From: Chondrosia reniformis
Taxonomy: Eukaryota; Porifera; Demospongiae; Chondrillida; Chondrillidae
Reading direction: 5' to 3'
DNA: 64,000 bases
Assembly: GCA_947172415.1 (NCBI GenBank)
Contig: OX359201.1
Coordinates: 868,001-932,000 of the forward strand
Shown in pieces: positions 5,994 through 27,798 of the stretch. Below the pieces are notes generated by a model. It worked only from the letters and a program-made list of their open reading frames with translations, had not been told where the DNA came from and did no database searches. Made by a program: the position numbers and the translations under genes. Each line of letters begins with the position of its first letter. The first letter of the stretch is position 1.

Positions 5994-8900
5994 TTACAGT
6001 ATTATTTTCGCAGCTAAAGCCTGGTTGTTGTTATGACCATGCTCTTTTAAAACGGTTTTCAATTTCCCCATATTCTTGTCAAAGACATCTTTTGACCACT
6101 GACAAACTATTTGATAGAAATAGTCAGCCTTTTCAGACTTTGTTGCTTTTTGTTGATTCTGCATACTAATCAGCTTTTCATTTTCTTTCTCTTCCAACAG
6201 GCCATTACCAAACATGCTAGCTATTAAATCTCCATCGATCACAATGTCATTTGAAATTCGTAGATCAGCACAAATCTGTCTCTTCTTGATTTCTAAATTC
6301 ATTTAACAAAATATATAGATTATATAGATTAGAATAGAATAGTAATTAATTGGGTCTAATGGCAAGCAGTGTATACCACTCTCCTCACCAAAAGGACCCT
6401 CTGAAGGCTGGCTCGCATCACCTGTGTAAAAAAAACAAATTGAGTTACTTAACTGGGCTTATATCATTTAAACATATTTATACACACAACAGAAAGGCCT
6501 TTATCACAAACTCCAATAACTTGCTTCTTATACCATAAAATTGGACGGCATGATATTTTGAAGAATGTTTAATTGCAATTTTTGGCAGATATTGTTTAGA
6601 ACCACTGTACCTGGCTATGTATACTTCATGCCAAACAACCTCAATCCCCCTATGTAGCAATAGTTCATAGTTCCATACAGTAGACTCTACTTAATTGCAA
6701 AATATTTAAATGTTTGTTAGCATAAAATTCTCGGGAACCAATATATTTTGTATAAGGAAGATCTCCGGATATTTGCATATCAGCTCTAAGGCTTTGCAGT
6801 TAATTTTACAAGAGGAGTCCCATGCACTATATGCATGGTTAGCATATATAATACATCTGCATATAATATATAATACTCTTTAAACAATGAAATATACAAG
6901 GTGCCTATATTATTACACATACACAAATACATACGTACGTATGTTACCGTAGATCTTTTGTACATCTATGTATATCATTATTTACCACTTCCAGTGCTCC
7001 TATCTCCTTCAAGCTCTCTTTTATTTATATTTTGTCTCTTGACATCATCTTCAATTATTCTGCCACCTGTTTCTGATCTGCTACTGTTAGCAGCTGCTAG
7101 TGGCTTTTCTAGAATAATTAAGATTCATGTAACTGCATGTGTGTATTATAGACTATATAAAAAGATTAAGCGCATTTCTCACCTTTTGTTGGCTTGAATT
7201 TTGATGAACATTTCTTCTTGTGGAGCATAATAAGAAGCATAATAAAAAGAAAAATAATAAATGAAACCAAGACCAACAAGAAGGCAGCTAGAAATCCAAT
7301 CTCTTTCGGTGTAAAGGGCTTCCCATATTGCTGCATGTTGGTCACAATAATCAACTGACCAAATGGCTGAAGACTGCCAATCACTGGATCAACCCCTTCA
7401 CATTGATAGTTTCCTGTAATATTAGTGGTTACTTGAAGTCCTCTATTGATTGGCCGGTTTGACACATCCTCGAGTAACCATGGACAGGTTGCAGTGAAAG
7501 TACTACAGCAGACAATTTCTTCTTGTGGTGGTATGTTTAAACACTTTCCTAAAGTAGAATCACTGACTCTACAAACTTGTATTTCTCTTCCAAAGGGAAT
7601 ATTGTCAGTGACACATTTAAAAGAAGCAATGTGGGAGGAGTTCATCTCTATCACACCAGAGGACTGAGACTGAAGGGCATTGTAAGCATTCAATACATCT
7701 GCTGTGAAAAGGAGATAAATTAATGGAGTCTATAACATTTAGAGGATGTAAATAAAATATTGTTAAAATAATTCATTTATACGTACTTTGGATATTCAGC
7801 TGTCTCAATCCACATATAGTATCAATACCATTAGTAGCAGTACATTTTACTACAGTACTAGAACTATACTTATCAAGCAATTGAGTTGAAAATCCCAGTG
7901 TAACTGTCTAGATGTATAAAGAAGATATTTAATTTCAAAAGAAATTGTATATATGTGCTACGTCAAACTAGTACTCTCACCTGGTTGTCCTCGGAATAGG
8001 TGATACAGTCATAGTCATTAAAGTATCCAAGATCCCATGTTATACTCTGTACTGGAGGATATCCAGTAAAATGACAACTGAAGGTGAAGTTGACAGATCC
8101 ATTGAATATGATTAGTTGACCATACAGAGTGTAACAACGTGTCACGATTGATGGAGGAAACTCTGTCTTCTCAGTGAAGTTGAGGGGAATGTGATTTTCT
8201 ACCAAAAGCTGAAAAATGTAGTACAGCTGAAACTGAAACTGACAGACTACACAAGTTCCATTTTGACTAATTTTAAGATTTGTCATCTCAAATGTTTTGC
8301 CATGACTCTTTTCTTCTTTATCAATAAACCAGATGCAAGTTTCAGGTGATATAAACAGTGCATTGAATCCTGAGACGCCAAATGCTTGAGTGGTATAATT
8401 TCTAACTGTCTCATTCGTACAAGACGGGACACCATCTACAAATAATTAGCAAATTGATTCTAGAAAATTACTTAACCTAATGAAGGTTCTTGGATCAAAA
8501 TACTAGAAACCTTATAGTTTCAACCAAGTGTCTAGATAAGTTGGACACAGAGAATCTCTTAACATGTCTGTGGGCAATTAAAATGTCCGTCCAATGTTCA
8601 AGTGAGCCAGACCTTACATCCGCTCTAGGTGACACCCCCAAATAGGTCAATTGCGCATTGAATTCTTAAAAATGATACACAATTAGATAAAAGTGTACTG
8701 GTTACGTGGGCAAAAGAAAATCTCCGTCCATAACTAAATTAAATATCTACGAGCTCCAAATATATTAGCCTCTAATCGTAAATATTATCCGTAATCCACG
8801 TAGACTGGTGCCTCTCCCATTAACATTAAGACCAACGGATCAATGCAATAATAGTAATATGAAGAGACTTAATCATGAAGACTACCTTTTTACGGGCTAG

Positions 8901-9116
8901 AATGTTACGGTGATACTAAATACACGTAAATGGTTGTATCAGAAAGTAACAACCTTCGGGACGTATACGTAGCTCGGACTGTCATTATCCGAATATGAAC
9001 AAACCTGGGTCAATCAAAGCTTCAGTTTTGGGAGAGAAGGTCTGATTTTGCGTACTTTCCGATAACCGGGTTAAAAGACTAAAAATTAAGAGACTCCAAA
9101 CTAGTCTCATTCCCAT
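5994..9116 (-). CDS. Ig-domain membrane receptor with a CARD-like cytoplasmic domain (receptor C)
   Basis: Seven exons: 9116-9005, 8435-7981, 7907-7787, 7698-7183, 7108-6986, 6421-6389 and 6292-5994. Boundaries and phases agree, giving 552 aa. Exon 1 encodes a signal peptide (MGMRLVWSLLIFSLL). Residues about 38-120 form a CUB-like domain with four spaced cysteines ending CVVC. About 121-229 is an Ig-like domain (FSCHFTGYPP, then ITWDL, then VKCTATNG). About 230-355 is a second Ig-like domain ending in NYQCEGVDPV. A strong transmembrane helix at about 370-393 (FLAAFLLVLVSFIIFLFIML) is followed by a polar tail. Residues about 455-550 form a helical CARD-like death fold (KSEKADYFYQIV, KTVLKEHGHNNNQALAAKI). 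Exon 2 fuses two exons that are separate in the three paralogues. By analogy it is an adhesion or immune-type receptor signalling through death-fold contacts; this is inference. Confidence 0.82.
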
Positions 9117-9292
9117 TTCATGCAGGGGACACATTCCTAGCTCTTGATGACGTCAGTTTATACTAGGATGGCCCGCTTAGTTCTTCAACTATGTAAAAGG
9201 TCAAAACGATATATGGAGACCTTATGCAACTAGATAGACCCAGTAAGACTTTAATTATTGATAATTTATTACACTCCATTATATATAGCTAC

Positions 9293-12200
9293 TCATTTAA
9301 CTGTTCTGGACTTTGTTTCTGATTTTTGAACTGCAAAAGAAAACGAAACATATAATAATGTATGATGTATGAATATGTATATAATGTTCATGCTTGTAAT
9401 ACTTTTATATAAATGAATTATGATATTTAATAAAGTTCAATACCAGAAAAGCTGAGATCAAACCAGTATCATGAACATAAATTCTGGTTACTATAATCTA
9501 GTCTTGCAATTGTATTTAACACCATATATGACCTGCTACTGTTCTAAAATGAAAGTTATATACATGTATAATCTATACAGCTACTGTATATAAAGTTAGC
9601 AATTATATTCAGTGTCCTGTACACACTTACTTCCTAGGAGTGAATCAGTCTCCGATGAAGCTTTAGCATCTGTCTCTTTTACCTGAAGCAAACCTACATA
9701 TAACAAAATAACAATAATATATATAGCATTTACTAATAGCAGTGTCTTCCCCAATTTTATTAAACTGGCCACTATATCAAACCTGATATACTATATATAT
9801 ATAAGCACAATCTAACATGACAGTTATGTATTCCCTCATGTATAGGCTTTACAAATACCTTTTGCACTGTTATCCTCACATGGTAGACTCCTGTACTTCC
9901 ATCTGCTGCATGTTATACACAAGCATATTAAAAGTAACATCATTTGCACCAGTATCACTACTCCCATCACCGCTAATCCTATTGCATATCCCACTGGAGT
10001 CTCAGAAGAATGGCCAACCACCATTTTCACCACTAATATTGGTTCCCCAAGAGGTTGGTACTCATTTATCACAGGATCATACACTTCACATTGATAGTAT
10101 CCTCTACTGTCAGTGGTGACTGTACAATAACTACTGAGAGCTGTGCTGGATCCATCCTCTACTGTCCATGGACAAGAAGGATCATAGTATGAACAGCTGC
10201 AACAGGTGTAGTTCCTCTCTGGCTGTCTGTTTAGACACTCTTCAGCTTTTGAGTAATCCACCCTACACACTCTCATTGTCTCCTCGTAAGATAACTTGTT
10301 TGTAGAACAGTTGAAAGAGGAAGAACCAGTGGAGTTCATCTCCACCTCACCAGAAGGTTGAGATTGTAGGGGAAGGTAGAACTGTAAGCTGCTTAGGTAA
10401 CCAACTACAAGACAAATATGTACGTATATACAGATATTTAATACTTTCCATTACACACATATAGCTATAATAATTCAGCTCACATGTATAGTAAAGATGT
10501 CTCATTCCACATATAGTATCAATACCATTAGTAGCAGTACATGTGACTACAGTATCTAAACTGAAGTCCTCCACTAGAGACTCTGACAGACCCAATGTAA
10601 CGGACTACAAAATGATATATAGTGAATATTGTAGTGTTGCAATTGTCTAATGCAAATCTCCCAAATATTCATGTATATACGTGAGATATACATATATATA
10701 TACTCCGTTACCGGGGCAACCGCCTGTGTTTAAATTTCGTAACCGTGATATAACAGGATTTAAGAAGCTATATACTGCATCGGCTTCTTAAATCCTGTTA
10801 TATTCCTGCCCAAATATGGTAAACTAAGACATTTCTTCTTGGGGGGTGGACAATTCTCCTTACATTTAGGACAGTTGGAGTAGTCAGGGCAAGAGTATTC
10901 TATGAAGTCGTCAGCGTTTAAGCAAAACTAACCAGACGCTAGATGAGCCATCCTGAAAGTCCCGCCAAAATAACGATAAGAAGCGATGGAGTATATATCA
11001 CTCATACCACGGTGCTTCGGTGTACATGGATTTTATACATACTCGCTTACGTGCCCTCGTGACTCCTATGTATAAAACCCCCAGTGCCGTGGTATAACTA
11101 ATAGATATATATGTACAAGGCATAATAGCATGATTCAGATTTTATTGTTAACAGATATATTATGTATAATGTTTATGTACTTTGAACAATGAACAGTATG
11201 GAATTATAATACATATCATAAATCACCAATTGTGGCATATGAATATTATATTGTGGTAAAAACCTAATTGTTTAATTCAATAATATAATCTATTAAGTTA
11301 TTTCTGTTGACAAAAAGTTGTTACAATTATATATCTATGTACATACAAAGTCTTCCATTAACTCTCAATTGCATTTAATGACATGCATGAGCTCACTCAC
11401 CTGGTTGTCCTCGGAATAGGTGACACAGTCATAGTCATTAAAGTGTCCAAGATCCCATGTTATACTCTGTACAGGAGGATATCCAGTAAAGTGACAACTG
11501 AAGGTGAAGTTGGCAGATCCATTGAATATGATTGGTTGACCATACAGAGTATAACAAGGTGACAGATCTGATGGAGGAGACTCTGTCTTCTCAGTGAAGT
11601 TGAGGGGAACTATTTAGAGAATAAAATATTAGGGAGGTAGGTGTTTTGTCTATAAATAGGTGGGTGTATACCAGGTGTATTTATATTTCAATATAGTTTG
11701 GGTACGCCCACTTCATGCTTTAAATACTTCTATCTCAAGAGATATTCATTGTACATTAGAACTCCTCTACCTTCGTCTTTCACTACTACGAGGAAGATGT
11801 AGTAAAATTTCTTTATTGCTTCAAGTTGACAGAGAATGCAAGTATTATTGTCAGTTGCTTGAAAGTCCTCAAAGTAGAGAGCTGTCTTGTTGTGATTGTG
11901 TGCTTCATGACTGGTAGACTGTACCATCCAGGTGCACCTCTCTCCTCTACTGTGGAACACTCCACCAAATCCCTCAGCAGCATGGGCCACTGTTATAAAC
12001 TGCAGTGTTGTGAAGTTGGAACATCTAGGAACATCTGAACACACGTGAATAAATATATACTATATTCCTTATTAGGAGATTTGGAGTCAGAGTTAGGTGT
12101 AAGTACATATACAGTATATACAGATTCTAGTGTTTATATATATATCATACAGTTGAAAGTAAGTTCAAATACGTACGTATATACCAGCAAAAACTGTAGA

Positions 12201-12327
12201 CTCTATATAGATCAATGCACATACCTGGTGAGTTGCTGTGGTAAGGGGTTCCCGGATAAAACTCTTGATATTCCGCGACTGATAATAGACACAGCGTCTC
12301 CAAAAGTAAGACTCTCAAAGCGAACAT
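9293..12327 (-). CDS. Ig-domain membrane receptor with a short tail and no death fold (receptor B)
   Basis: Seven exons: 12327-12225, 12034-11771, 11609-11401, 10604-10484, 10404-9859, 9693-9631 and 9330-9293, giving 447 aa. The chosen start gives a clean signal peptide (MFALRVLLLETLCLLSVA); an in-frame ATG 14 codons upstream (12369) is possible. Layout: CUB-like domain (about 35-122), Ig-like 1 (about 123-232), Ig-like 2 (about 233-350, GYYQCEVYDPV), one transmembrane helix (GLAVMGVVILVQMMLLLICL) and about 50 cytoplasmic residues. The tail holds ETDSLL, a match to the acidic dileucine sorting motif [DE]xxxL[LI], and ends SETKSRTVK before a stop. The paralogues continue into a CARD-like or Death domain at this point. 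It could be a decoy or ligand-binding partner for its neighbours. It lies 176 bp upstream of the start of receptor C, in tandem. Confidence 0.82.
10748..10803. repeat. Perfect 21-bp hairpin in a receptor B intron
   Basis: Arms at 10748-10768 and 10783-10803 are perfect reverse complements (atataacaggatttaagaag...), separated by 14 bases. A second, looser inverted repeat follows at about 11008-11096 ('ataccacgg' versus 'ccgtggtat'). Both lie in the intron between 10604 and 11401 and look like small foldback/MITE insertions. Confidence 0.75.
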
Positions 12328-13323
12328 CGGATGGTCCTGCTGAATCGCGATCGTGTTCCACGAATGCACGTTCGATTTCGTGAGAACGATTGCGAAAGGT
12401 GGATCATGTTGATGGGAAATCCCTAATTGTTTCTTAGCTACATGGCCATGGGAATCATTAATTGTCTTTTTCTTGATCTTTCGTTAGCTCATGCTGCATG
12501 TCTGGCCAGTAGCTAGAAAGAGGAGACTCCTGTATCTTCATTCATAGCTCTCTTTTTAGTTCAGAGTATGTAGGCATAGAATGTAGGAAATTGGTATATT
12601 AGACTATATATACATATTGTATATAAGGCTGAGACCTTGAATGCATGCAATGCATGCAACCAGCCATCGGTATTCCTGTATATAAAGTTAACTATATAAA
12701 AACATTCAAAATTGAAGTTAAAAGTAGGAATGGCACAATAACAGTGCATGATTGGCACATCTAGAAAAAAAAAACAAGACAGTGATCATATTCAAGCCAA
12801 GGATTCACAGAAGATCAAGATAAAGAAAAAGATCAAGACTCCCAGGATCACTGATGAAGGGTGGAATTCCCAGAAACAGTTGTCTGGCCCAGTGGAGCAG
12901 AAGAAAAGGAGACACTTGTATCTTCATCCAAAGGTTTAGTTCTCTATAGGCTTTTTAATTAGGCATTAGGCATGTAGGAAAATGGCGTACAAGATTATTC
13001 ATGTACAGTGATCATCTAACCATGCAGAAGTGGCATACTGAAACCTAACTATATATATACACATCACTTCTATGTTTGGCACATCATGGATATATATATA
13101 TAGAACTTTACGGTAGGGATCGATGCACCCAAGCATATATATATAGAAGTGATGTGTATAGTTAAGTCTGCTACCTAATACATATATAGAGAATCAAGTA
13201 CATACTGAAAATAACCCATGCATCATGTACAGTATGTTACATAAAATTTAATTATATACAAAGAGACCAGAAAGTGACTCAATTACAAACATGCAAACGA
13301 GTTTTTACATTCATGTCTGCCAA
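12328..13323. other. Spacer between receptors B and A with repeat insertions
   Basis: No gene is supported. The stretch contains a small repeat remnant at about 12495-12580, a dispersed-repeat copy at about 12795-12955, and flanking text at 12719-13075. The flanking text resembles one arm of the large palindrome at 44.9-45.3 kb ('agtaggaatgg' and 'cagaagt' landmarks in the same order). It presumably also holds the 5' control region of receptor B and the 3' end of receptor A. Confidence 0.6.
12795..12955 (+). repeat. Dispersed repeat copy ('actgatgaagggtgg' family)
   Basis: It shares the ordered landmarks 'aagactcccaggatcac', 'tgatgaagggtggaattccc', 'agaaacagttgtctggccca' and 'ggctttttaat' with copies at 262-395, 22505-22655 (minus), 47535-47720 and 51055-51235. 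One frame reads [16 protein letters not shown] in several copies, but the copies lie in introns or spacers with no shared gene context. It is best read as a non-autonomous repeat. Confidence 0.8.
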
Positions 13324-16300
13324 TCATTCTTGTGTTGGTTGTTTATGTATAGTCTGTATTTTCCTAGCCAAAGCCTTGTTGTTGGCATCGCTATGTTCTT
13401 CCAGCACCACACGTAACTTCTCCATCTTATCTCGACACACATCCACTGACCAGTCACTTACAACTTTATAAAAATAATCAGCCTTTTCACATTTTGATGA
13501 TTTCTTCTTGTTAACCATGGAAATAAGTTCACTGTGTTGATCATCATTTAAAATTTCTTTTACTTTCATTTTAGCCATCAATAACACATCAATCATTATC
13601 TCTTCTCTTATATCAACAAGTAATTGTGACATTCTTCTCTTATATTCTTCATTTTCTATGCATAAATATTAATTAATTAATTATCCAATGCAATAAGTAT
13701 GGATAAATAATATTTATACCTCTTTTTTTTCTGTTAGAATGAGAATCCTTAGGTGTAGTCCTTGAAGCAGTGGAACTATAATCTGTATTCTGAGGATCTT
13801 AAGGACAAAAACGGGTATGTACGATATTATCAAGATAATACAAATGTATATTATGTACGTAACTCTTAAATCCATCAAATTTAAAACCTCAGTACTTATT
13901 AACCTAGATCTACTTGCAAGGCCTCAGAACCCTGAAACCTGGGGATTTCCCTTCCTGATTCCCCTAACCTTTATTACAATTTTACCATAATCCTTTTCGC
14001 TGACTCCACAAGTTTCCCTTGCCTGATGTAATACATATTCTATTGTACTCAATTATACTTTTTAAAGTAGCAGAGGTCAAACTGATACTGCGCTGCGCTT
14101 TGGAGATAATGATTCCCTATAATCTATAACTGCAAACTTACTACGAAGAAGTGGATCAGATTCAGAAGGACCATTTTCAATGTCTGAACTATTACCTCCT
14201 GAAGTCTTGTTTTCTTTCTGACTGTGAGTACCTTCATCAAAGGAATTAAAATAGTCATACCATAGCAACCAAGCATTAGAGAAGACAAAGGGACTATTAT
14301 TGGAATAGGATTACATGTATACCTATGTCTTATACGTAAGCTATACAGTACTTTTGGGTTGTCCAGACCGGACATTGCAATTAATAATTTGTACAAACTT
14401 TCCCACTAGAATGACATCACCATGCATGGGGCGATAACCTTTTATGATTACCAATTGCAATGTCCTGTCTGAACAACCAAAACGTATTGTGTTGCCATTT
14501 ATAACCATATGCACCAGATTAAATTCCCAGACAGGCCTATTAATTAAAATAAGCAGCACAAAAGTGTCACGATGATTACCAGGATGTAGACATTAGGCTG
14601 CGTGATGATATTGATTATACGTATATAGGTGGATGGATGAATGAGGAATAATGTACATAATGTACCCATACGTACATACACATGTATGTGTCTATATACG
14701 TATGTATACACACACATATATAGCCTTAAGAAAAAGTTTATCTTAAAAATGTATACAAATACATAGGTATAACAATGTAAATGCATGTTCTTCACCTTCC
14801 ACTTTACTTCTATTCTTTTTCCTTTTTATATATTGTCTTCTACATATTATTAATTTGATTCCTATAAGTAAAGCTTTTATTAGGAGAGCAGCTCCTCCCA
14901 AAGCGGTAGCCAAAATTAGAATAATATTAATTCCACCACGATGTTCCACCACTTGTATTGGTTCCCCAAGAGGTTGGTACTCATTTATCACAGGATCATA
15001 CACTTCACATTGATAGTATCCTCTACTGTCAGTGGTGACTGTACAATAACTACTGAGAGCTGTGCTGGATCCATCCTCTACTGTCCATGGACAAGAAGGA
15101 TCATAGTATGAACAGCTGCAACAGGTGTAGTTCCTCTCTGGCTGTCTGTTTAGACACTCTTCAGCTTTTGAGTAATCCACCCTACACACTCTCATTGTCT
15201 CCTCGCTAGATAACTTGTTTGTAGAACAGTTGAACGAGGCAGAACCAGTGGAGTTCATGACTACCTCACCAGAAGGTTGAGAATCAGTTGGTATGTAAAA
15301 TTTGAGGCCATCAATATAGCCCTCTACAACAACATACACAACAGTATCTAAATAAATGTGAATATTAAACTCAATTTTTATAAATACGCTGTGAATGACT
15401 ACTTGTGGATTCTACTATTTAGACTTTTGGACACAGTGAAAGGTACAAAAGTAGAATTTATGAAACTTTGCCAAGTATTCTACATTAGAGCAATGGATAC
15501 AAATGCATGCATGTAATCTTATATATCCTTTCATCCAAGCAGTAATAAGGTTTTATGTACATATATACAGTTAAATTTGGGTATATAGTCTCACCTGTGT
15601 AGTAGAGGTGTCTCTGGCCACAGATATCATTGCTATGGATACCATTGCTGGCACTACATTTTACAGCGTCACCATTACTGAAGTCAGTTTTGAGAGACTT
15701 GGACAAACCAAAGGTCACAGTCTGGCAAAGAGGAAGTTGAATCAGCATAAAGATTAACATAATTCCCTTAAAAGGTTAACCACAAGTATGCATATTCGCA
15801 CTATCACATACTTGTGACTCAATCAAAGCTTATAGAAGTCAACTTGGAGGAGGATTGAACCATGACACTTATCACAAAACACATGACTCACCTGATTATC
15901 CTCAGAATAGATGATACATTCATAGTCATTAAAGTGTCCAAGATCCCATGTTATACTCTGTACTGGAGGATATCCAGTAAAGTAACAACTGAAGGTGAAG
16001 TTGACAGATCCATTGAATATGATTGGTTGAGCTTTTAGAGTATAACAAGGTGACTTATCTGTTGGAGGAGACTCTGTCTTCTCAGTGAAGTTGAGGGGAA
16101 CTAAATATAAAAAGTTAAAAAAGTTATAAAATTAAAGTATGATGAATGGAGCTACGGGTTGTGCAAGGAGAATACTAAATGTTCCCATACGGGACCTCAA
16201 ATGAAGAGAGCTTTACTCAAGGGAGCTATCTGCCTCAGCATTGAAGGAATTAGAGCTATCAAAATGGATAGGCTAAACGTTTTGTCTACATAATACACTA

Positions 16301-16840
16301 CATCACAGGAGGAAACGACTCACCTACTTCACTAACGAGAAGTTGGTAGATGAGGTATGATGTAGCTGATGATTTCAACTGACACACTGTACAAGTGCTA
16401 TTATCATCAGTTACAAATTGACCAATCAGTAGCTCAGTTGAGTTCGAGAAGAGTTTTACTTTTCTATCTGGCAAAATCCATTGGTTGCAAGCTTCCGTCG
16501 AATGAAATAATCCTTGATATCCAATAGCTCCGTTGGCCACGGTGACATATTTCCGATGTACATTGTGGCAATTGAATCTTTCCCCTATACATACAAATTT
16601 TAGCCGAAATACGTACTTATACGAAAGAGAAATCACATAGCGAAATTAAAACAAGTACCGCTACGCTATATTACAACTTGTTGTATAGGCAATGAATCAG
16701 TTTCCATCTCTTGTAAGGTTAGTATTTTGTAGTAACTAACCTTCCGGTGAATCGTAGATTTGACTTTTTGGCCAAAATTCTTGTCTTTCCGATGCAAGGA
16801 CTGAGCATAAGGTCGCCAGGAAGACGAGAAAAAGGTCCAT
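13324..16840 (-). CDS. Ig-domain membrane receptor with a CARD-like cytoplasmic domain (receptor A)
   Basis: Eight exons: 16840-16741, 16584-16324, 16100-15892, 15721-15595, 15323-14796, 14231-14142, 13797-13720 and 13655-13324. All join in phase, giving 574 aa. Signal peptide MDLFLVFLATLCSVLAS. A CUB-like domain spans about 34-120 (GLFHSTEACNQW, CTVCQL). Ig-like 1 is about 121-232 (VNFTFSCYFTGYPPVQSITW, then VKCSASNG). Ig-like 2 is about 233-355, cysteine-rich (NYTCCSCSYYDPSCPW) and ending GYYQCEVYDPV. One transmembrane helix follows at about 363-392. The cytoplasmic linker carries ESDPLL, an acidic dileucine motif. The last exon encodes a CARD-like death fold (about 465-565: CEKADYFYKVVSDW, VVLEEHSDANNKALARKI). 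Most internal introns are phase 1. The start lies 112 bp from the PPIL3 start on the other strand, so the two probably share a promoter region. Confidence 0.85.
14344..14486. mobile_element. MITE copy with 'tacagtacttttgggttgtcc' ends
   Basis: The left end 'cagtacttttgggttgtcc' and the right end 'gaacaaccaaaacgta' are approximate inverted repeats about 40 bp long, with 'gacattgcaatt' and 'caattgcaatgtcc' inside. A second copy lies at 47116-47283. There is no coding sequence. It sits in the intron between the transmembrane exon and the first linker exon of receptor A. Confidence 0.75.
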
Positions 16841-16952
16841 ACTTAGGCGTCAGATTTCAGGTTTACTGATATATAGCGAGGAAGTACACATCTCAGTAAT
16901 AGGCGGTTTCCCTTGGAAATTACCCAACCCTAGTCTTACGCAATCATACAAA
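16841..16952. promoter_or_regulatory. Shared divergent promoter, receptor A / PPIL3
   Basis: Only 112 bases separate the start codons of two oppositely oriented genes, so both 5' UTRs and core promoters must lie here or overlap. The interval is less AT-rich than nearby introns and has no obvious TATA box placed for either gene. It is inferred from gene geometry only. Confidence 0.5.
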
Positions 16953-19900
16953 ATGGTGGGTTGTATCTAAATTACATCGCTTTGACTTCCGACATGTGTT
17001 TCACTTTATATGTAGTCTGTAACACTTCATACGGATCTCGGAGATATAAAGATAGAGCTACATTGCGATCTTGTACCCAGAACTTGCGAAGTAAGTTTGA
17101 TGTAACATTGATATCTTTAGAAAAAGGTAACTTTGGTGTAAAACTATCCTCATCCAAATGTCTTCATTATTATTATTGCTATACTGTCTCATGTACTCTG
17201 CGCACTAGGGCCATTTTGCCTTGTGTAGCACTGTACAAAAGATTTAAGGATTTTCCCTATATACTAATAGGTGTAGAAAAGTAGACTATTCTAAGTATTA
17301 TGATAAGGGTGGACCCTAGGCTTGAAGAGTATTTGGAGATGCAATTGGTTCTTCTTCTTCTTGAGTTCATGGTCAAACGTTTCAATCCTGTGGATCGTCA
17401 CTCCTTCAAGCCTAGGGTCCTACCCTTATCATAATTTGGATACAGTGAGAAGAAATCCCTACCCCATTATTCCAAGTATGTTCCTTAACCTTATTAACGG
17501 CAACCATGGCTCTAAGGAGATTGTATCTTTTAATCTTGTGACTCTGATTGGTTAGTCTCTTTCTAAGAAGGAATGTTATTGTGAAAATTTGGGATGCATC
17601 ATTCGTAGCTAATTTAGTTGATAGCTTACTCAATTATAATTAAGATATGTTTATTTATTCATTAATTCATGTTATAACTACAACTCATTTAGCTTCTGTT
17701 CTCCTTCATTTCTTTAGAATTTTCTTGCTCTCTGTGCAAGTGGCTATTACAATGATTGTATATTTCACAGGTAAGCCTTTGGAGGCTCAATATGTATGCT
17801 AGTCAGAAATATTTGATTACTCTTCATAGATCCTTCTTAACACAAAAATACTTAATAGAAATCATTTTTTACTGTTTTAACTGCGTCGAACTTATCTTTT
17901 GAAAGGATCATCTTTCGACTTTACAGCATCTAAAGATGTAGTTTTGTTGTCTCTTCTTGAATGTCAGACATTTTGACCCCGAGGGAGGGTCTTCTTTAGT
18001 CATGCGTCTTTAGAAGCTCTAAAAGTTGAAAGATGATCCTTTCAAAAGACAAACATAATAATGCAAGTTTTATAAGGTTAATAATTCTACTGTAATATTA
18101 AAGATAAACTAGTTAGAAAGAAAAGGGTTGACTGTTGCGTTCATTGAAAATAGCATGAGCCTCGACTACACAATATTTCAGTAATTGAACATTTCAACCC
18201 CAAGGTCTTCATCGCCAAGAATTATTATAACTATTTTGTATAGTGTATATTTCTTTTAAGTAACCACTTTTGGTGCTTTAGAAATGTGAAGGCATTCATG
18301 GCGCAGACAGGAGATCCAACTGGTAAGGAAGAGATGGCATTTAATTCATTAAAAACCTCTTTTTCGTAATGTTGTATGTTTGTGTGTAATATGTTGTGTC
18401 AAATCCAGGCCGTACTCTCCACACCATTGTCCAATTGTAGTGACAAGCTGTTCGTACCGGTTATGCAATCATAGTGATACGGAGGATATAGGGGCTGTGT
18501 TTAAGACTATAGATTGATGTATTCAATAGAATGAACAATTTACAGCTGCTACCATTTAGAATACTGATTTTACAATACAGCTGTACTTTCTAAAATGAGT
18601 TTTACATTTTACATGCTAAATCTAAGATTAATCTTATAATTGTATTCTGTTTGTACATAACATGTAATTTAAATGTAACAAGAGATTACCTGATTCACTG
18701 TATTACTAGTGCTGTATAAATATTATTAAGATAATGCATACCTACGTATATAATATGCATAAAAATATAGTGTCAATTTATTATTAAAACATAGTGATGT
18801 GTTGTGTATAATTCAGGCACTGGTAAAGGAGGGCAAAGCATTTGGGGAAAGAGATTTGAAGATGAGTTTCATGAATCCTTAAAAGTATGTCTAGATCTTT
18901 TATGTTCATTTTCATTGGACATCATATTTACAGTCGTTCTTGCATTGTGTATGTTGTTGCCATGGTTTTACTCCCCCTCAAATCTGCTATTACTTCTTTC
19001 TTGATTATACAATTGATGGAATACCCTTCACATTAGTAGTTGTGGTTTGGTTATCACTGATGGTTGAATGTGATACTCCTCATATAAGTAGTTGTGGTTT
19101 GGTTATCACTGATGGTTGAATGTGATACTCCTCATATAAGTAGTTGTGGTTTGGTTATCACTGATGGGTGAATGTGATACTCCTCACATTAGTAGTTGTG
19201 GTTTGGTTATCCCTGATGGTTGAATGTGATACTCCTCATATAAGTAGTTGTGGTTTGGTTATCACTGATGGTTGAATGTGATACTCCTCATATAAGTAGT
19301 TGTGGTTTGGTTATCACTGATGGTTGAATGTGATACTCCTCATATAAGTAGTTGTGGTTTGGTTATCACTGATGGTTGAATGTGATACTCCTCATATAAA
19401 TAGTTGTGGTTTGGTTATCACTGATGGGTGAATGTGATACTCCTCACATTAGTAGTTGTGGTTTGGTTATCCCTGATGGTTGAATGTGATACTCCTCATA
19501 TAAGTAGTTGTGGTTTGGTTATCACTGATGGTTGAATGTGATACTCCTCATATAAATAGTTGTGGTTTGGTTATCACCAAGGTTGAACACCTGCCAGACC
19601 TGTTTATTGTCAATGAAGTTTTATTCACTGACTGACAGCAATTAATGCTCAGAACAAGTCATTAAGTCATTAGGAAATTCCCAACTTTAAATATAGTAAC
19701 CATTTTAGATGAACTTTTAAGTTTTGTCTTCCTTTCTAGAGGTTCCATATATTGATTTCTTACCCACATTACTACCTTCCAGAGTCCATACAACATAGAC
19801 ATTGTTATAAGACTTCACTTTATTCATTGCTATAAGACTTCATTATATTTATTATATCTATGTTGGCAATGTGTACATCATATCAAATTAGTAGCAAGGT

Positions 19901-20852
19901 GAATTTGATGAAATGTATAACATTTATAAATTTCAATTGATGAATTTTGAAAGTTTCTCAGATTTGTATAATGTAACACTTCCCTAGCTACTAAGAAAAC
20001 TTTCAACAGTAGAAACCTGTACACTACACATATGTATCCTGTAATCTTTTTTCAACATACTATATTCTACAGCACAGCACTAGAGGAGTGGTCTCCATGG
20101 CAAACAGTGGACCAGATTCAAATGCCTCGCAGTTCTACATCACATATGCTAAGCAACCTCATTTGGACATGAAGAGCACCATATTTGGAAAGTCAGTCAA
20201 AATGCATGTCACTTTACTGTAAGACCCAGATGTCTGTACAATAATAATATTAATGCTATCCTCATCATTAGACTCTGGATTTACCCCACCCACTCACTCT
20301 TTTGAGGGGCACAATGTGCAGGAAGTGGAACCAAAGTTCACGTATGGAAATTCCCCCATGTCTCATTGTGCTCCTCAGCAGACATGAGTGGGCGGAGAGA
20401 GATCCAGAATCATATGATGATATATATCAAAGTCCCCTGTTTTTCTAATATTAATATTGTTTGATGACTTTCACACACAAATCGAGAGAGTTGAATTGTA
20501 TATATATATATTTAATATTAAGCATCTAAATGCTCCATCTAAAAAGATTAGTTTGACACAGTATGTTAGAAGAAATCCTTATCTTGTTAAATGTTCATGC
20601 GTGTTATCCATATATACTTGCATGCCATCATGGAGATCCTTAGCTTAATCATGTGTGTGTATATATATACGTGCTCAATTATACATGCGTGGTCACACTC
20701 TTTTCTCAATATTTATGATTAACAGAGTTATTGATGGTTTTGATACACTGGATGATTTGGAAAAGGTTCCCGTTGAAGAAAAGACATTTAAACCGAAAAC
20801 GGAAATCAGAATCAGGAGAATTACTATTCACGCAAATCCAATAGCTTCATGA
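16953..20852 (+). CDS. PPIL3: Peptidyl-prolyl cis-trans isomerase PPIL3 (cyclophilin)
   Basis: Seven exons: 16953-16955 (the ATG alone), 17016-17090, 17718-17770, 18282-18322, 18817-18884, 20073-20191 and 20726-20852. The product follows human PPIL3 closely: [69 protein letters not shown] and [18 protein letters not shown], ending [10 protein letters not shown]. Cyclophilin active-site landmarks (FHR, QTGDPTGTG, MAN and SQFYIT) are present. PPIL3 is a single-domain spliceosome-associated cyclophilin, 161 residues in human, and this model is essentially full length. A first coding exon of only the initiator codon is unusual but is supported by 'ATG|gtgggt' and an acceptor directly before TCT. 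Introns hold an inverted-repeat element, a second hairpin element and a 52-bp minisatellite. The gene is nested in the receptor cluster, converging on receptor D with 136 bp between stop codons. Confidence 0.93.
17297..17436. mobile_element. Hairpin/MITE-like insertion in PPIL3 intron 2
   Basis: Arms at 17297-17330 and 17400-17436 pair almost perfectly ('ttatgataagggtgg' and 'ctaggcttgaag' with their complements), around a central unique region of about 70 bp. There is no coding potential. It is probably a non-autonomous foldback element. Confidence 0.75.
17886..18056. mobile_element. Hairpin/MITE-like insertion in PPIL3 intron 3
   Basis: 'cttttgaaaggatcatcttt' at about 17896-17915 is mirrored by 'aaagatgatcctttcaaaag' at about 18030-18049, with roughly 110 bp between. 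The outer text 'actgcgtcgaacttatc' resembles the end of the inverted-repeat element at 62947-63099, so the two may be related. Confidence 0.65.
19030..19585. repeat. 52-bp minisatellite in PPIL3 intron 5
   Basis: About 11 copies of a 52-bp unit containing 'gtagttgtggtttggttatc' and 'gaatgtgatactcctcat'. Two variant units ('cctcacattagtag' and 'ccctgatgg') recur as a block, which suggests higher-order duplication of several units at once. Confidence 0.95.
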
Positions 20853-20988
20853 TCATATTGCATGTGTACATGTTACATATGCATTGACATACGTACATGT
20901 TGATTTATAAGTATAGTATATACATATGAGTTGGAATAATCAATTCTTCGTACAGTTTGTATATATAGTATGCAACCTATATTTAAAA

Positions 20989-23900
20989 TTACACAACATC
21001 CGTATGTATGGAGGCTTTCACATCTTTGGCTAGTTCATTAAGCTTCAATACATGAAGGACATCCAGTAGTTTGCTCCAAGTAGCTGAGGGATCCTTCTTG
21101 ATCCACTCTCCCAGCATCTTTGAGCACATTGTACGAGCATCTCCGTCTCCCTGACTGGCCTCCAGTGCCATAGCCTCTGTGCCCATGCTGAGCCCACAAG
21201 CAATGATAAACCAGTAGGGGGCCATCCTGGGGACAAAGTCTGCCAGATCCACAACTGTAGGCACTGCATGTATTAGTATATAAATATAATTTGAAAAAGG
21301 GGAGTTAATTGCACTGAGCCGTGCAAAGGCTATGATGATAAGCAAAAATATACAAGATATTACGCCAAACCAGCCAAGTGACCGAAGTCTAATCATGCAT
21401 GGCTTTTAATAGGACTTTGGTCCCCAGCCAAGATTAGACTTCGGTCACTTGGCTGGTTTGGCATAATATCTTCCAGTGAATATTTTTGCTTATCATAAAT
21501 ATAATATGTACATATATGTATAGAACAACTATAATAAGAGGCTAAAGTGCCTCTTATTATAGTTATACTTCAGCTGTGGATATAACTGGCCTTGGTTGCC
21601 CCAACAACGGAGTGTATATTTTTGATATATACACATGCAATAATGTAGTAAATAGCTCTTTGATTTACCTCCGTCATGTGTTTTATTGGAGACAGACTTA
21701 ACATCTATAATAAGTGCTATGTAAAGTAAAAGAATATATACAGTACATATACATGCATGTTTTCTATACATAGATGGTATATACATACATGTACATTTAT
21801 ACATACTTATATGAAACGATATGGGATATTTGTTGCATCCATAATGAAAAGGTATATATTTGAGCATCGACAATACTTATATTCAAGGAACAGAGATTTG
21901 AACAATTCAACCCCGTAGGTCTTCTTCAGCAATGATTCCTTTTCACATTGTGTGCTGCATGTACTTATATAACATAATATTGAATGCTTACATCTCTCAT
22001 ATAGATAAGCTTTAATAACTTTAGCTACTCTTTTGAGGCCCTGTTTGGAGAGAACAGTCAGAAGCTTCTCCCATGTGACGTTCTTCCCTTGATCAATCCA
22101 TTGTATCAGCACTTTGGAACAGAGAGTGGCAGCATTGCAGCCACTTTGACTGGCCCTGATTACCGTAGCCTCCTGTTCCATATCAAGACCACAAGCAATG
22201 AGATACCAACGATGACAGATACTTGGAATGAATCTTATTAATATCTCCATGGTAACCTCTCTAGCATGCGCAGTATCTGCACACATACATATACATGTTA
22301 TAAGAGCATTTTATATTGCACATGAATACTGGAACCAAAAGTTAGCGAAACTGGATTTTACCCAACATAGGGGAATTTAATTTTAGTGACTTACAAGATG
22401 CACGGAAGTTTTGTTAGCAGTGAAAATACAGTATAGTTATATATTGAATTAATCTAACACACCATTTTTCTTACATATATACAAAATCTACTTTAGAGTA
22501 AAGTCCTATAGGGAACTAATTATAAACCTATATAGCTTTGGATGAGTATACAAGAGTATTCTCCTTCTACTTCTCCACCGGGCCAGACAGCTGTTTAACC
22601 CTTCATCAGTGACCCTAGGAGTCTTTGTCTTCTTCTTAGTCTTTCGTAGGCCTTGGCATGTATGATAATATGCATATATACATATAAGATAATATGTATA
22701 CATGACGTATATATGATAATATTTTTATAGGTCAACTACAGCTTTATTATAAACAAAAGTTAGGCCCAAAGGTGAAGACTATAGCCAAAATATAAATACA
22801 AGGTCAAGGTGGAGCCAATAATTATTTTAGCAGAGGTCTGAAGCGATGGGTTATAATCCTGTTGTCATGTATTCAGGCACAGCCCGTGATTGAAACAGCT
22901 AAAAATTAAATTTTGTTGTACATTGATAGCAATTAGTAAAATTAACACAACCAGATCAAGGAATATAAAATGTGTAAGTGGAAGATCGTATTAGACTATA
23001 CGTGCACACCCTACCACATTATATAAACATCTACGAAGTATAATAAATGGATGATTATTTCTGTTCGTAGGAATCTGTAAATTCAAAATAATATAATTAT
23101 GGTTTATTTGAATGTTTTGAAATGTTCTCATTGTACTATTTATTTATTCACATACGTATATATATAGGTACATTTTTTTCTAGTTAAGCATACAGTTTCA
23201 ATGTAATGAAATTCTCATTAAACAATAAAATGTTGGACGGACATGATATGTGCATGCATTTTATAATATAATCTATTGTGTGAATATTGCACTTTTAAAA
23301 TTGTTATTTTTAAACGTTATTCTGATATTTGTGTTGGAGTATATGTCACACAGAATATATACTCACCTTTTCCCTGGAAGTATTCTTTGTTGTTTAAAGG
23401 ATTTGTGGTAGCTAATATATATAATTATACATATGTATAAGAGTGTATTTGCTTGTATTATACATACGTACGTATATGTAGTGTTCAGTATAATTGTATA
23501 TACAGTGCAAGTTACAATATACTAAGGTAATCTAATATAATATAATTAAATAATTCATATGGCTCCAAGAAAGGACCTAGAAACAAAATGGGCATATCAT
23601 CATAAAGTTTAGGGTATAAAACTCATTTTAAATTAAGGGATTTTTGATTTAGGCCTCCGTTTCTTAGAAAACGGAGGACAAAGTTTGCATATAAAAGGCC
23701 ATAGGACTATAGAAAACCTATGGGAAATTTATATGCAAACCATGTGTTATATTGATTAAAATTTTCAGTTTGTCCGATAACTGTGAAATCAACATATATC
23801 ATGGTACATGTGTATAAGAAACGTCTGGCGAAGTTTTGCTTAATTAAATGAGCAAAATAATCAAGATATAATGAAGAATTCAAAGTTACGATTGCGCAAG

Positions 23901-26900
23901 CTGGTGATGTATTGTGATGTTTTTCTAATGCGTCACCAACACCTTCATATGTCGCTCCGTACACACATTTTGTGAATCATGTGACGTTGCCAAAACGTCA
24001 CCGCCTCGTTGCTAAAGAAGATCATCCTTTCGAGAACGGCTATGACAAGTCGACGCTCTCCTACGAGAAGGAGCTACCGAATAAGCGAGTTGGTTGCATG
24101 CATTGGCATAATCAACAGGGTTAGAGACCATTTTGTAACTTGTACACAAGGGACATCATATACGTATATAAAGGCCTTGGCCTTTTATGTCCCTTGTGTA
24201 CAAGTTACAAAATGGTCTCTAACCCTGTTGATTATGCCAATGCATGCAACCAACCGTCGGTGTTCTTAGCTCCCTCACAAGGCAAATCAAATCTGTTGTG
24301 GTTATTAGCTGAGACCCCTTTAATACTGGAGCCTTTGTTGATATATGGCATGCAGATGCATCATCTTCAGTCTATACTAAGGTGTGAAAAGGTAATTGGT
24401 AGGCCATGTGTTCTACCTTGCAATTGGATGATCTGTATCAACTACTACTCTCTATGCAGTAGTTGAGGATTTCAAAGCCTGCAACAGTACTAGTGTGACT
24501 AAAGTCTTGTACTGTTTAAAATACTGATTATCCTAGGGGTCACTTGGATCTCTTTAAATTTGTAACTTGCACTGTGTAGCTAGTACTTGATTGTAATTTT
24601 AATATTACATAGTCACTATATAATATACAGATACATGGTTATTATACATATATAATATGTACCTATTATACTGATCACTGCAATCATGCAGTGATATTGA
24701 TGTCATGTAATAAAATACATATTGCATTTGATTTAAATCGTTTAAAAGTCAAAAACTTCTAAATTATACCAATTGCAACACATTATAATATTACATAAAT
24801 TTACTTACCACATCTCATAGTCTTGTATTTTTGCTGTATTCTATTCTTAAGTAGAATGATTGCAATGAGTACAGCCAGCAGAACAAGACACAACACTATT
24901 ACTGTGACTACTACTACAGTAGTAATCACCTCCACTGGAATGGATGTATTTGCTTCCGTGAATGTAGACAGATTAAAAGTGGTGGTAGTAACTTCATCCA
25001 GCCTAATTACCTGAATTGGATCACCGAGCGGTTGATATATTTTGAAGACTGGATCATAGACTTGACATTGGTAGTTTCCCGGGAGTGAAGTGGTAACTTG
25101 GCACATACTGTTGACATCTGTACGAGTGTGAAGTAACCAGGGACAAGAGCGATTGTAGTACTCACAACTGCAGCACCTGTAGTTGTGTTGTCTGTTTAGA
25201 CACTTTTCAGCTTTTGTGTTTACGACCAAACACACTCTGAAATGCTCTCCAAAGTCAGTGAATCTTGCTGTAGAACAGTTGAATGTCACTTTCCCTGTTG
25301 AATTTATCTCAATTTTGCCAGAAGTTTGTGACAGCAATGGTTGGTAGAATTTAAGATTATCTCGGTAGCCAACTATATGTACACACACAAATAAGTATAT
25401 CAAATGAGTGCATAGATATAGTATTAAATGCTAAACTTTTTTGATATGTAAACTTGTATTTTAGCTCTTCTATTAGCAACAAAAGTGAGTGATTACTTTC
25501 TCTAGTCATACAGACTAATTAGTGGTGATTCTACAAATCTATCAGTATCAATACAAGCTAATAAACATGCCCATTTCAAGTGAGTATGTAAACTGTTTAA
25601 TTGTGGTATGCATTAACTCACAAAGGTTATATATATTTTGTTATTAAGGCTCTCATGTCCTAATATCCAAAGCTTACACAATTAGTATATAACTATATAC
25701 ATACGTATGTATATAAATTGCTCTATAGTATATATACATGTTGCTGAGGCCTATATATAGGCCCATTTAAGCTAAAGCTATTCTCAATAAACGCAACAAA
25801 CAAGCCCTATATTGCTATATAATATTATTGCAACATTTTGAGTATACACCAATAGCAATTGATTGTATATATCGTAAAAGTTATTAGGCATGCTGAATAG
25901 ATAATAGTACAGTTACTTTTGGATGATTGAATACACCAACAAGTTATTTTTACCTATTGTGTGCCTGACAAAGCCCGTGATGGGTGGAACGTTGCCTTGA
26001 ATTAAAAAGTGACTTGTTGGTGTGCTCAATCGTCCAAAAGTAATCGTTCTATTATGATTGTATTATATGTATGTTTATAAGCTTACATGTAAACCCAACT
26101 CCTCTGATTCCACTAAATGATTGAATACCATTTCTACCAGTACAGATCATGCTTGAGGGACTAGTATATTTTGGGGCCGTCAGTAACGATGATAAACCAA
26201 TAGTGACAGTCTATATAGATATGAATTGAAATGATTGGTGGACATTAGTATATCTGTTTGCTGTACTCTCTAAGTATGGGAAAAATATGGCCGCCCTATA
26301 TTCATTGTAATAGTTATCACCCTAAAAATCAACAATGAATACATTTTTGGCTTTTTTAAGCTCTCAAAACATACCTATATATAGGCACATATCTAATTAA
26401 TAATTAGTATGTCAGTTGGTAAGTTTAAACTTTTATGATATTGATATATATTCGTGTTGCTAATAATAACAAAATTGAAATCTAAGTTTTAAAACTTAAA
26501 GGATATTACTCACATTTTATACAGACAAGATTCAGAAACCTGTTTAAATATGGTATTATTAAAATTAATATAATAATTAAAAATTACCTTCCATATATGG
26601 ACAAACATAAATCATCACTCTCACCTGGTTATCCTCGGAATAGGTGACACAGTCATAGTCATTAAAGTATCCAAGATCCCATGTTATACTCTGTACTGGA
26701 GGATATCCAGTAAAGTGACAACTGAAGGTGAAGTTGACAGATCCATTAAAAGTAATGATGGCTTCTTTCAGAAGTACAGGATAAGAGTGGTCAGATTCGA
26801 CTTCTTCTAACCGGAGTGAAACTAAATCAAAGTTGAATAATTAAAATTGTATAGTCATAATTTGTGTACTGTGAATTCTATTCAACAGATAACATTGAAC

Positions 26901-27798
26901 GTGATGATATCACACCAATATTACTTCCTAATCAACAATCTAAAAATTTAACATCTCACCCATCATAGGCCTTGTTAGGTATACAATAAAAAAGGTGAAT
27001 TAACTGCGTTGAAGCAGGTGACATCTATTATACAGTAGTTCTGTAAATGTCTGATTAGTTAATTATCATACGTACATGTATGAATAGTATGTATTTATAT
27101 ACCTATATCTTGTACTGTAACTTCAAATAAGTAGAATGAGAAGGATGAATTGCATATAATACATAGTCCATCATCACCAGCTTCAAATTGTCTATACCAC
27201 AATGTGGTTGCGTTTGTGTCATATCTTGCTGGATCCACATTGTAGACTGTCCAGTTGGAACAGCTCTCATTAGTGTGAAAACTTCCATTATACCCAGTTA
27301 CGGCATAGGATTCAGTAATATACTGAGTTGGTGTAGAGTTACAACTGGGAATTCCATCTATATATTTATATATAGTCATGTGCATAATTTACTTACATAA
27401 ACTTTTGTAGTACTGACTATAGAGTATATTGATTGCTTTTTCACTATCATAAGGTTTAAGCTATTCTATACTTTCTATTAAAAGGAGATGTCATTGTAAA
27501 GGCGGATGGTCAAACTATATATGGTCTATAATTATTGGACACACAAGCTATACTGTACTGGATAAATTGCTACTTGTATGGGCTAACAGGCCTTAATTCG
27601 TCCCAAATGTATACGTATGTCACCACACGCGCAACTATAAATCTATAATAACATTCACACATTGTATAGAGCTAGTAACATGCAAACGTACGTATACGTA
27701 CCTGAATGTCGGATGAAAGACGGCTTTACTGACCAGAATGTTTGAGGGAACACTTCTAGTGCCGTCAATAATAATAAGATAGAGGATTTGAAAAACAT
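20989..27798 (-). CDS. Ig-domain membrane receptor with two cytoplasmic Death domains (receptor D)
   Basis: Nine exons: 27798-27702, 27357-27103, 26821-26625, 26210-26087, 25372-24809, 23411-23367, 22276-21992, 21704-21669 and 21263-20989. Phases agree throughout, giving 625 aa. Signal peptide MFFKSSILLLLTALEV. A CUB-like domain (about 33-117, CIIC) is followed by Ig-like 1 (about 118-223) and Ig-like 2 (about 224-345, GNYQCQVYDPV). A Thr-rich stalk leads to a transmembrane helix (TVVVVTVIVLCLVLLAVLIA). Death domain 1 lies at about 427-520 (HRWYLIACGL, CSKVLIQWI, VTWEKLLTVL, VAKVIKAYL). A 12-residue linker exon separates it from Death domain 2 (about 534-625: YWFIIACGLSM, CSKMLGEWIKK, ATWSKLLDVL, LAKDVKASI). 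The two domains are clearly related, implying internal duplication. Death domains recruit adaptors by homotypic contact, so an apoptosis or NF-kB-type output is plausible inference. Confidence 0.83.
21331..21497. mobile_element. Inverted-repeat element in the last receptor D intron
   Basis: Arms of about 64 bp (21331-21394 and 21433-21497) pair with few mismatches; the longest perfect part contains 'ccaaaccagccaagtgaccg'. The arms flank about 38 bp. It lies between the linker exon and the second Death-domain exon. A smaller hairpin ('actataataagaggc' with its complement) follows at about 21527-21566. Confidence 0.8.
22505..22655 (-). repeat. Dispersed repeat copy, minus orientation
   Basis: The reverse complement of this interval carries the 'aagactcctagggtcactga', 'tgaagggttaaacagctg', 'tctggcccggtggagaagta' series that defines the dispersed family. 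It lies in the receptor D intron between exon 6 and the first Death-domain exon. Confidence 0.75.
24090..24253. mobile_element. Perfect 67-bp inverted repeat (hairpin) in a receptor D intron
   Basis: Arms 24090-24156 and 24187-24253 are perfect reverse complements by eye (outer end 'ttggttgcatgcattggc', inner end 'cacaagggacat'), around a 30-base loop. There are no mismatches, so the insertion or fold-back duplication is recent. It lies in the long intron between the transmembrane exon and the first tail exon. Confidence 0.9.
25911..26046. mobile_element. Hairpin/MITE-like element in a receptor D intron
   Basis: 'acttttggatgattgaatac' with 'accaacaagt' is mirrored by 'acttgttggtgtgctcaatc' and 'gtccaaaagta'. 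The arms are about 33 bp with several mismatches and flank about 65 bp. It sits immediately downstream of receptor D exon 4 in the coding direction. Confidence 0.75.

Follow-up and report, generated by a model that had tools for sequence, protein, structure and literature searches.

Predicted tandem array of immunoglobulin-superfamily receptor genes with divergent head domains and varied death-fold tails in the sponge Chondrosia reniformis

Four neighbouring minus-strand genes, g1 to g4, were found at positions 5994-27798 of a 64,000-nucleotide stretch of the Chondrosia reniformis genome (the window; bases 868001-932000 of contig 13, C13), and their predicted splicing would yield single-pass receptors. 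The four genes close one end of what is probably a tandem array of 11 genes for single-pass immunoglobulin (Ig)-superfamily receptors, in which the head domains are divergent, the first Ig domain (Ig1) is homogenised by conversion and the intracellular tails vary by way of phase-1 introns. A sequence-only reading of the four genes had proposed a locus-encoded receptor family with a common ectodomain plan and differing death-fold tails; this proposal was supported, and the array proved larger.

Searches of the species' own genome (117,379,552 bases in 15 contigs, one haplotype) with the exon encoding the second Ig-like domain and the transmembrane helix (Ig2-TM) and with the Ig1 exon each returned at least 11 places, all of them on the minus strand of C13 at ∼801 to 895 kb. 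The adjoining stretch 790001-868000 of C13 was taken in, and seven additional genes were labelled A to G. The array lies at ∼0.80 to 0.90 Mb of C13 and reaches ∼68 kb before the first base of the window. Its tails are of several kinds: a single Death domain in A, B and C, two Death domains in F and g4, a CARD fold in g1 and g3, and no death fold in g2, D, E and G. In D, E and G, the check behind the TM exons used known tail exons and reading frames only; it revealed no death fold, but a different tail type could escape it. Frames resembling retroelement gag-pol were seen by eye between receptor genes, at C13:824.7-827.5 kb.

The proteins modelled for g1 to g4 have 557 (9116-5994), 447 (12327-9293), 568 (16840-13324) and 613 (27798-20989) residues, respectively, their exon joins being predicted from the genomic sequence. 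Each begins with a leader, continues with a head domain and a pair of Ig-like domains, and has one strong hydrophobic membrane stretch, which shows two overlapping peaks in g3. The leaders were assessed by eye, the N-terminus being short and hydrophobic. All 26 introns are GT-AG, and 22 are in phase 1; the 4 in phase 0 are those that split Ig1. The splice sites were chosen by inspection, which in part builds the open frames and the phases into the models. Between 9 and 14 N-glycosylation sequons lie within the first 370 residues of each protein. As had been read earlier, g2 lacks a death fold and ends with a complete short tail. An acidic dileucine motif, of a kind with a role in sorting, is present in g2 and g3 (ETDSLL and ESDPLL), and like strings follow the TM exons of E and G in the reading frames.

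The exons differ in divergence. Across the 28 pairs formed by g1 to g4 and D to G, mean residue identity was 33% in the head, 85% in the first Ig1 exon and 65% in Ig2. The median synonymous divergence (dS) was 2.5 in the head, near saturation, and 0.097 in Ig1, while the median ratio of nonsynonymous to synonymous divergence (dN/dS) was 0.35 in the head, 0.57 in Ig1 and 0.23 in Ig2; undefined pairs are omitted from these medians (11 of 28 for the head and 1 of 28 for Ig1), leaving 17, 27 and 28 pairs, respectively. The Ig2 divergence set comprised 10 of the 11 genes, gene C being omitted because a stop splits its exon. Ig1 was less diverged than the head in 28 of 28 pairs, with a largest Fisher p of 1.9e-6 over sites and pairs that are not independent. 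The DNA matches end sharply, and in most pairs they span ∼212 to 238 bases around the Ig1 exon. The Ig1 tract of g4 covers only 131 to 145 bases and starts in mid-exon; D, E, G and g2 share a tract of 587 to 609 bases that takes in the second Ig1 exon, an intron and Ig2; and in the Ig2 exon of g3 a match of 341 to 348 bases lies inside the exon. The pattern is reversed in the A-B-C group: A matches C at 93% in the head but at 50% in Ig1. The best account of this exon mosaic would be gene conversion or unequal exchange; selection at the level of exons is insufficient alone because of the low synonymous divergence, the mid-exon breaks and the shared intron. The single common recognition scaffold proposed earlier was not borne out: the outermost domain is the most divergent, and the common part is the membrane-proximal Ig1 exon. 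A binding role for the heads, and diversifying selection on them, are conjecture at this point; in the heads dS is near saturation and dN/dS below 1.

The domains of the ectodomain were compared with profiles built from the same genome, namely, an Ig profile from 20 of the 150 listed Ig_3 places and a CUB profile from all 8 own-genome CUB places. The Ig1 alignment (A7) held 8 of the 11 genes, without D, E and G and with the rows of A, B and C joined by eye, and the Ig2 alignment (A8) held 5 of the 11. Ig1 matched the Ig profile in hhalign over 58 columns (E 5.7e-5; 0 of 40 shuffles as high), and Pfam Ig_3 matched the Ig1 of g1 only, under its cut-off (E 0.0059 to 0.016); judged by profile comparison, Ig1 is an Ig domain. 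Ig2, which has extra cysteines, gave a borderline result, with 2 of 40 shuffles scoring as high. With the head, 0 of 40 shuffles scored as high, but the match was short (18 columns; E 0.0075); the head is best left unassigned and is perhaps a divergent Ig domain. An AlphaFold2 model of head plus Ig1 had a low predicted local distance difference test score (pLDDT), 41.5. Of the ectodomain layout first read from the sequence, the leader (by eye), the two Ig-like domains and the single membrane stretch stood, and the CUB-like identity of the head was rejected on sequence: 0 of 11 heads matched the CUB profile (PF00431) at E ≤10, and when the head profile was aligned with the 8 own-genome CUBs, 7 of 40 column shuffles scored as high. 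No credible Pfam or PDB match was found for the head domain, the best row of the PDB search with the head profile being weak and unrelated (E 0.32). In the four joined proteins, Pfam showed no TIR match and no TNFR match at E ≤1; one of the 11 heads scanned alone gave TNFR_ELAPOR1_6th (E 0.14), taken as chance.

Among the tails, the Death domains were the more readily recognised by profile. PF00531 was matched by all seven receptor tail Death domains (best E 5.8e-14), and their assignment is firm. The two Death domains claimed for one gene were confirmed in g4, whose joined protein matched PF00531 in two stretches (E 5.2e-8; 33.3 bits) above the cut-off of 22.6 bits; the two exons alone scored 22.1 and 20.8 bits, just under it. 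Scores of 51.7, 39.2 and 35.8 bits were obtained for the Death exons in A, B and C, respectively, to which the second Death domain of g4 is 39 to 49% identical. Searched against the PDB, a profile of the seven domains returned THO complex subunit 1 (E 8.3e-9), Fas (E 0.012) and ankyrin-2 (E 0.02).

For the g3 tail, modelling of the last exon with AlphaFold2 gave a six-helix CARD-like fold (pLDDT 89.1), for which the best PDB matches in Foldseek and VIA were CARDs. Profile comparison by hhalign with own-genome CARDs (profile A5, built from 7 of the 25 CARD places in the genome) also supports a CARD, and the g1 tail is 44 to 45% identical to that of g3. The g3 tail is confidently modelled as a CARD fold, and the g1 tail is assigned the fold by analogy with it. 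Sequence searches of the PDB with a CARD-like exon and with its profile returned unrelated weak rows only (best E 0.07 and 0.16, respectively), and Pfam rows such as TFIIE_alpha and Baculo_11_kDa, below cut-off, were judged chance. A genome search with the g3 tail gave five places. Two are in the window, where the g1 match crosses a stop upstream of the modelled exon; of the others, two lie at C13 1.40 Mb and one lies at C9 4.48 Mb. By eye, the frames before the three outside copies resemble Ig-like stretches and a membrane helix; no Pfam match was obtained in three tested frames of one outside locus. The loci at C13:1.40 Mb and C9:4.48 Mb look, also by eye, like Ig-TM-like receptor genes that carry this CARD-like tail together with an extra, unassigned intracellular exon. 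The reading frames in the interval between C and D contain five modules for which an alignment with the CARD-like profile was obtained (E 1e-4; none of 60 shuffles scored as high), and three of the five, scanned as separate frames, had no Pfam match. The receptor tails may have been captured locally. The same interval (C13:830-846 kb) holds more Death frames (E 0.0025 and 2.5e-4) and CARD-like frames, partly duplicated.

If the predicted joins are right, binding of a ligand by the head would cluster the receptors, and the clustered CARD or Death tails could seed homotypic assemblies with intracellular partners, with death or inflammation as the output. Short-tailed members would be endocytic or decoy receptors that may remove ligand or dampen signalling. 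Ligand, partners and output are all inferred here. A possible partner of the tails is the protein encoded by a frame of this genome in which a caspase domain and a CARD occur together (C2:1728999; Peptidase_C14 E 1.8e-63, CARD E 1.7e-7). Since the modelled tail introns share phase 1, one tail could be exchanged for another by splicing, and g4 has a candidate alternative last exon (23055-23074). A bolder proposal is a self/non-self or symbiont-recognition locus in which exon mosaicism wires a polymorphic head to death outputs that can be interchanged. The homogenised Ig exons would act as a recombination hinge that re-pairs heads and tails, so that killing, inflammatory and decoy versions arise from one locus; we consider this doubtful.

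Several observations weigh against a receptor array with death-fold tails. PF00619 was matched at E ≤1 by none of the five CARD-like exons, nor by joined g1 or g3, so the CARD-like tails read earlier in two genes stand as a fold and not as a Pfam match. Death folds are common in the genome, with at least 150 places for Death domains (scoring covered 150 of 220 candidates; the Death domains of g4 and F lie outside the listed places) and 25 CARD places, and a chance neighbour of receptor exons is therefore a fair concern. Intracellular death-fold and Roc-like frames are present within the array, and in g4 a short last exon is plausible and 2.5 kb separate the TM exon from the first Death exon. 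These last features would suit an arrangement in which the death-fold exons are separate intracellular adaptor genes between receptor genes that have short tails only. However, in 7 of the 11 genes the TM exon is followed by Death or CARD exons, with order and strand conserved; all five CARD-like places follow Ig-TM-like exons; and a gene with Ig domains and a CARD has been reported from another sponge (PMC6208332). A phase-1 acceptor is offered by 9 of 9 receptor tail domains, a weak point, as several AG sites are on offer and a non-receptor control offers one too. Separate adaptor genes are accordingly judged rather unlikely. As an observation on such neighbours, two adjacent frames at C13:819277-822522, inside the array, gave weak matches, one to CARD (E 0.004) and the other to Roc GTPase (E 2.1e-4).

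The receptors might instead work in adhesion, guidance or dependence signalling, as does UNC5, which also combines Ig ectodomains with a Death domain, and not defence or historecognition. This is unlikely, though it deserves some weight: single-array tandem expansion with diverged heads and mosaic exons is usual in recognition families, and no ZU5 or thrombospondin domain was found by Pfam in the four joined proteins. According to a review, what Ig proteins mainly do in sponges is adhesion and intercellular recognition (PMC11999971). Finally, gene C has an in-frame TGA within its Ig2 exon (C13:813452-813991), and this copy may be broken; gene F lacks cysteine at two Ig2 places where all or nearly all other genes have one. 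Both would fit a decaying array made mostly of pseudogenes, with the exon pattern as a by-product of tandem duplication. Against this, g1 to g4 all have complete open models and the median dN/dS values are those given above, and we regard general decay as very improbable. The tandem receptor array remains the preferred reading, and its features within the window are collected in Table 1.

Table 1. Predicted exons of g1 to g4 (positions are those of the window)
Feature	Position	Strand	Basis
g1 exon 1: start codon and hydrophobic leader	9005..9116	-	leader by eye
g1 exon 2: head domain and Ig1 first part, single exon	7981..8435	-	Ig1 tract 7976-8189 common to paralogues
g1 exon 3: Ig1 second part	7787..7907	-	gene model
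g1 exon 4: Ig2-like domain and membrane helix	7183..7701	-	gene model and hydrophobic stretch
g1 exons 5-6: cytoplasmic linker	6377..7108 (6986-7108, 6377-6421)	-	gene model
g1 exon 7: CARD-fold tail	5994..6292	-	45% identity to g3 tail; fold by analogy with g3 model
g2 exon 1: start codon and leader	12225..12327	-	gene model
g2 exon 2: head domain	11771..12034	-	gene model
g2 exon 3: Ig1 first part, within shared tract	11401..11609	-	gene model and paralogue comparison
g2 exon 4: Ig1 second part	10484..10604	-	gene model
g2 exon 5: Ig2-like domain and membrane helix	9859..10404	-	gene model and hydrophobic stretch
g2 exons 6-7: short tail, acidic dileucine motif, without death fold	9293..9693 (9631-9693, 9293-9330)	-	model and Pfam scan
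g3 exon 1: start codon and leader	16741..16840	-	gene model
g3 exon 2: head domain	16324..16584	-	gene model
g3 exon 3: Ig1 first part, within shared tract	15892..16100	-	gene model and paralogue comparison
g3 exon 4: Ig1 second part	15595..15721	-	gene model
g3 exon 5: Ig2-like domain and membrane helix	14796..15323	-	near-identical paralogue tract ∼14940-15282, both ends mid-exon
g3 exons 6-7: linker with acidic dileucine motif	13720..14213 (14142-14213, 13720-13797)	-	gene model
g3 exon 8: CARD-fold tail	13324..13655	-	AlphaFold2 pLDDT 89.1; best Foldseek and VIA rows CARDs; hhalign to own-genome CARDs
g4 exon 1: start codon and leader	27702..27798	-	gene model
g4 exon 2: head domain	27103..27357	-	gene model
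g4 exon 3: Ig1 first part	26625..26821	-	shared tract ∼26620-26750, begins mid-exon
g4 exon 4: Ig1 second part	26087..26210	-	gene model
g4 exon 5: Ig2-like domain and membrane helix	24809..25372	-	gene model and hydrophobic stretch
g4 exon 6: cytoplasmic linker, least certain exon	23367..23411	-	gene model
possible alternative g4 last exon, giving tail without Death domains	23055..23074	-	splice-site reading only
g4 exon 7: Death domain 1	21992..22276	-	PF00531 E 1.7e-4 alone
g4 exon 8: Death domain 2 and stop	20989..21263	-	PF00531 E 4.4e-4 alone; 39-49% identity to A, B, C Death exons

On reading the window, tandem repeats of ∼50 bases each were seen between g4 and g3 (19000-19600), and inverted-repeat stretches, perhaps a mobile element, in the long g4 intron (24060-24320). 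Long low-complexity tandem repeats, open in several frames, occupy 47944-48875, 52922-54061 and 61425-62195, and a minus-strand frame of 604 residues (57932-59746) is rich in EEDKPAEESK-type repeats.

The architecture had been called unusual, a claim that is weakened by comparison with known systems. UNC5 netrin receptors share the Ig-containing ectodomain, the one membrane helix and the intracellular Death domain; they differ in their thrombospondin repeats, ZU5 and UPA and are not a tandem family with variable tails. TNFR-type death receptors are likewise type I receptors with a Death domain, and tail-less members can be decoys, but their ectodomain consists of cysteine-rich TNFR repeats, for which the four joined proteins gave no match. 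The demosponge Dysidea avara has a gene, TR154561_c0_g1, listed as a 'Gene containing Ig domains and a CARD domain' and upregulated 1 h after exposure to microbial patterns (PMC6208332, Table 5); that table row mentions no array and no Death-tailed or tail-less siblings. In Crassostrea virginica, a lineage-specific family of membrane proteins has a common outside and variable death-superfamily C-termini inside; its constant ectodomain is a cysteine-rich region instead of Ig, and its core is DED plus TRADD-N (PMC8195603). Sponges also have Ig-TIR genes (PMC12909245, PMC8242945), in which an Ig ectodomain is coupled to an innate signalling module, theirs being TIR and those here CARD or Death. 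The 41-member Alr family of Hydractinia, another early-branching animal, is an Ig gene family in one allorecognition complex; no death-fold tails are mentioned in the account of it, and the allorecognition role is known for Alr only (PMC11999971). Novel domain combinations have also been described in amphioxus immunity. No paper on the locus or on such an array in Chondrosia was found in searches of the open-licence PMC literature. The coupling of Ig domains to death folds is not new in kind; what is new is the array, the exon mosaic and the presence side by side of members with a CARD, with one or two Death domains and with no such tail.

To our knowledge, the genes for graft rejection and symbiont tolerance in sponges are still unsettled. 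The locus is a concrete candidate for sponge recognition genes: its family is compact, has a single plan on the outside and several death-fold interiors, and bears a clear signature of gene conversion. It sits in a chromosome-scale genome for which public RNA data exist (run ERR10177766; PMC12181767). If the exon joins hold, sponges would have used a single tandem family to couple Ig recognition with both Death and CARD modules, the recognition target of the head domain would become directly testable, and the array would stand as a candidate early animal recognition system.

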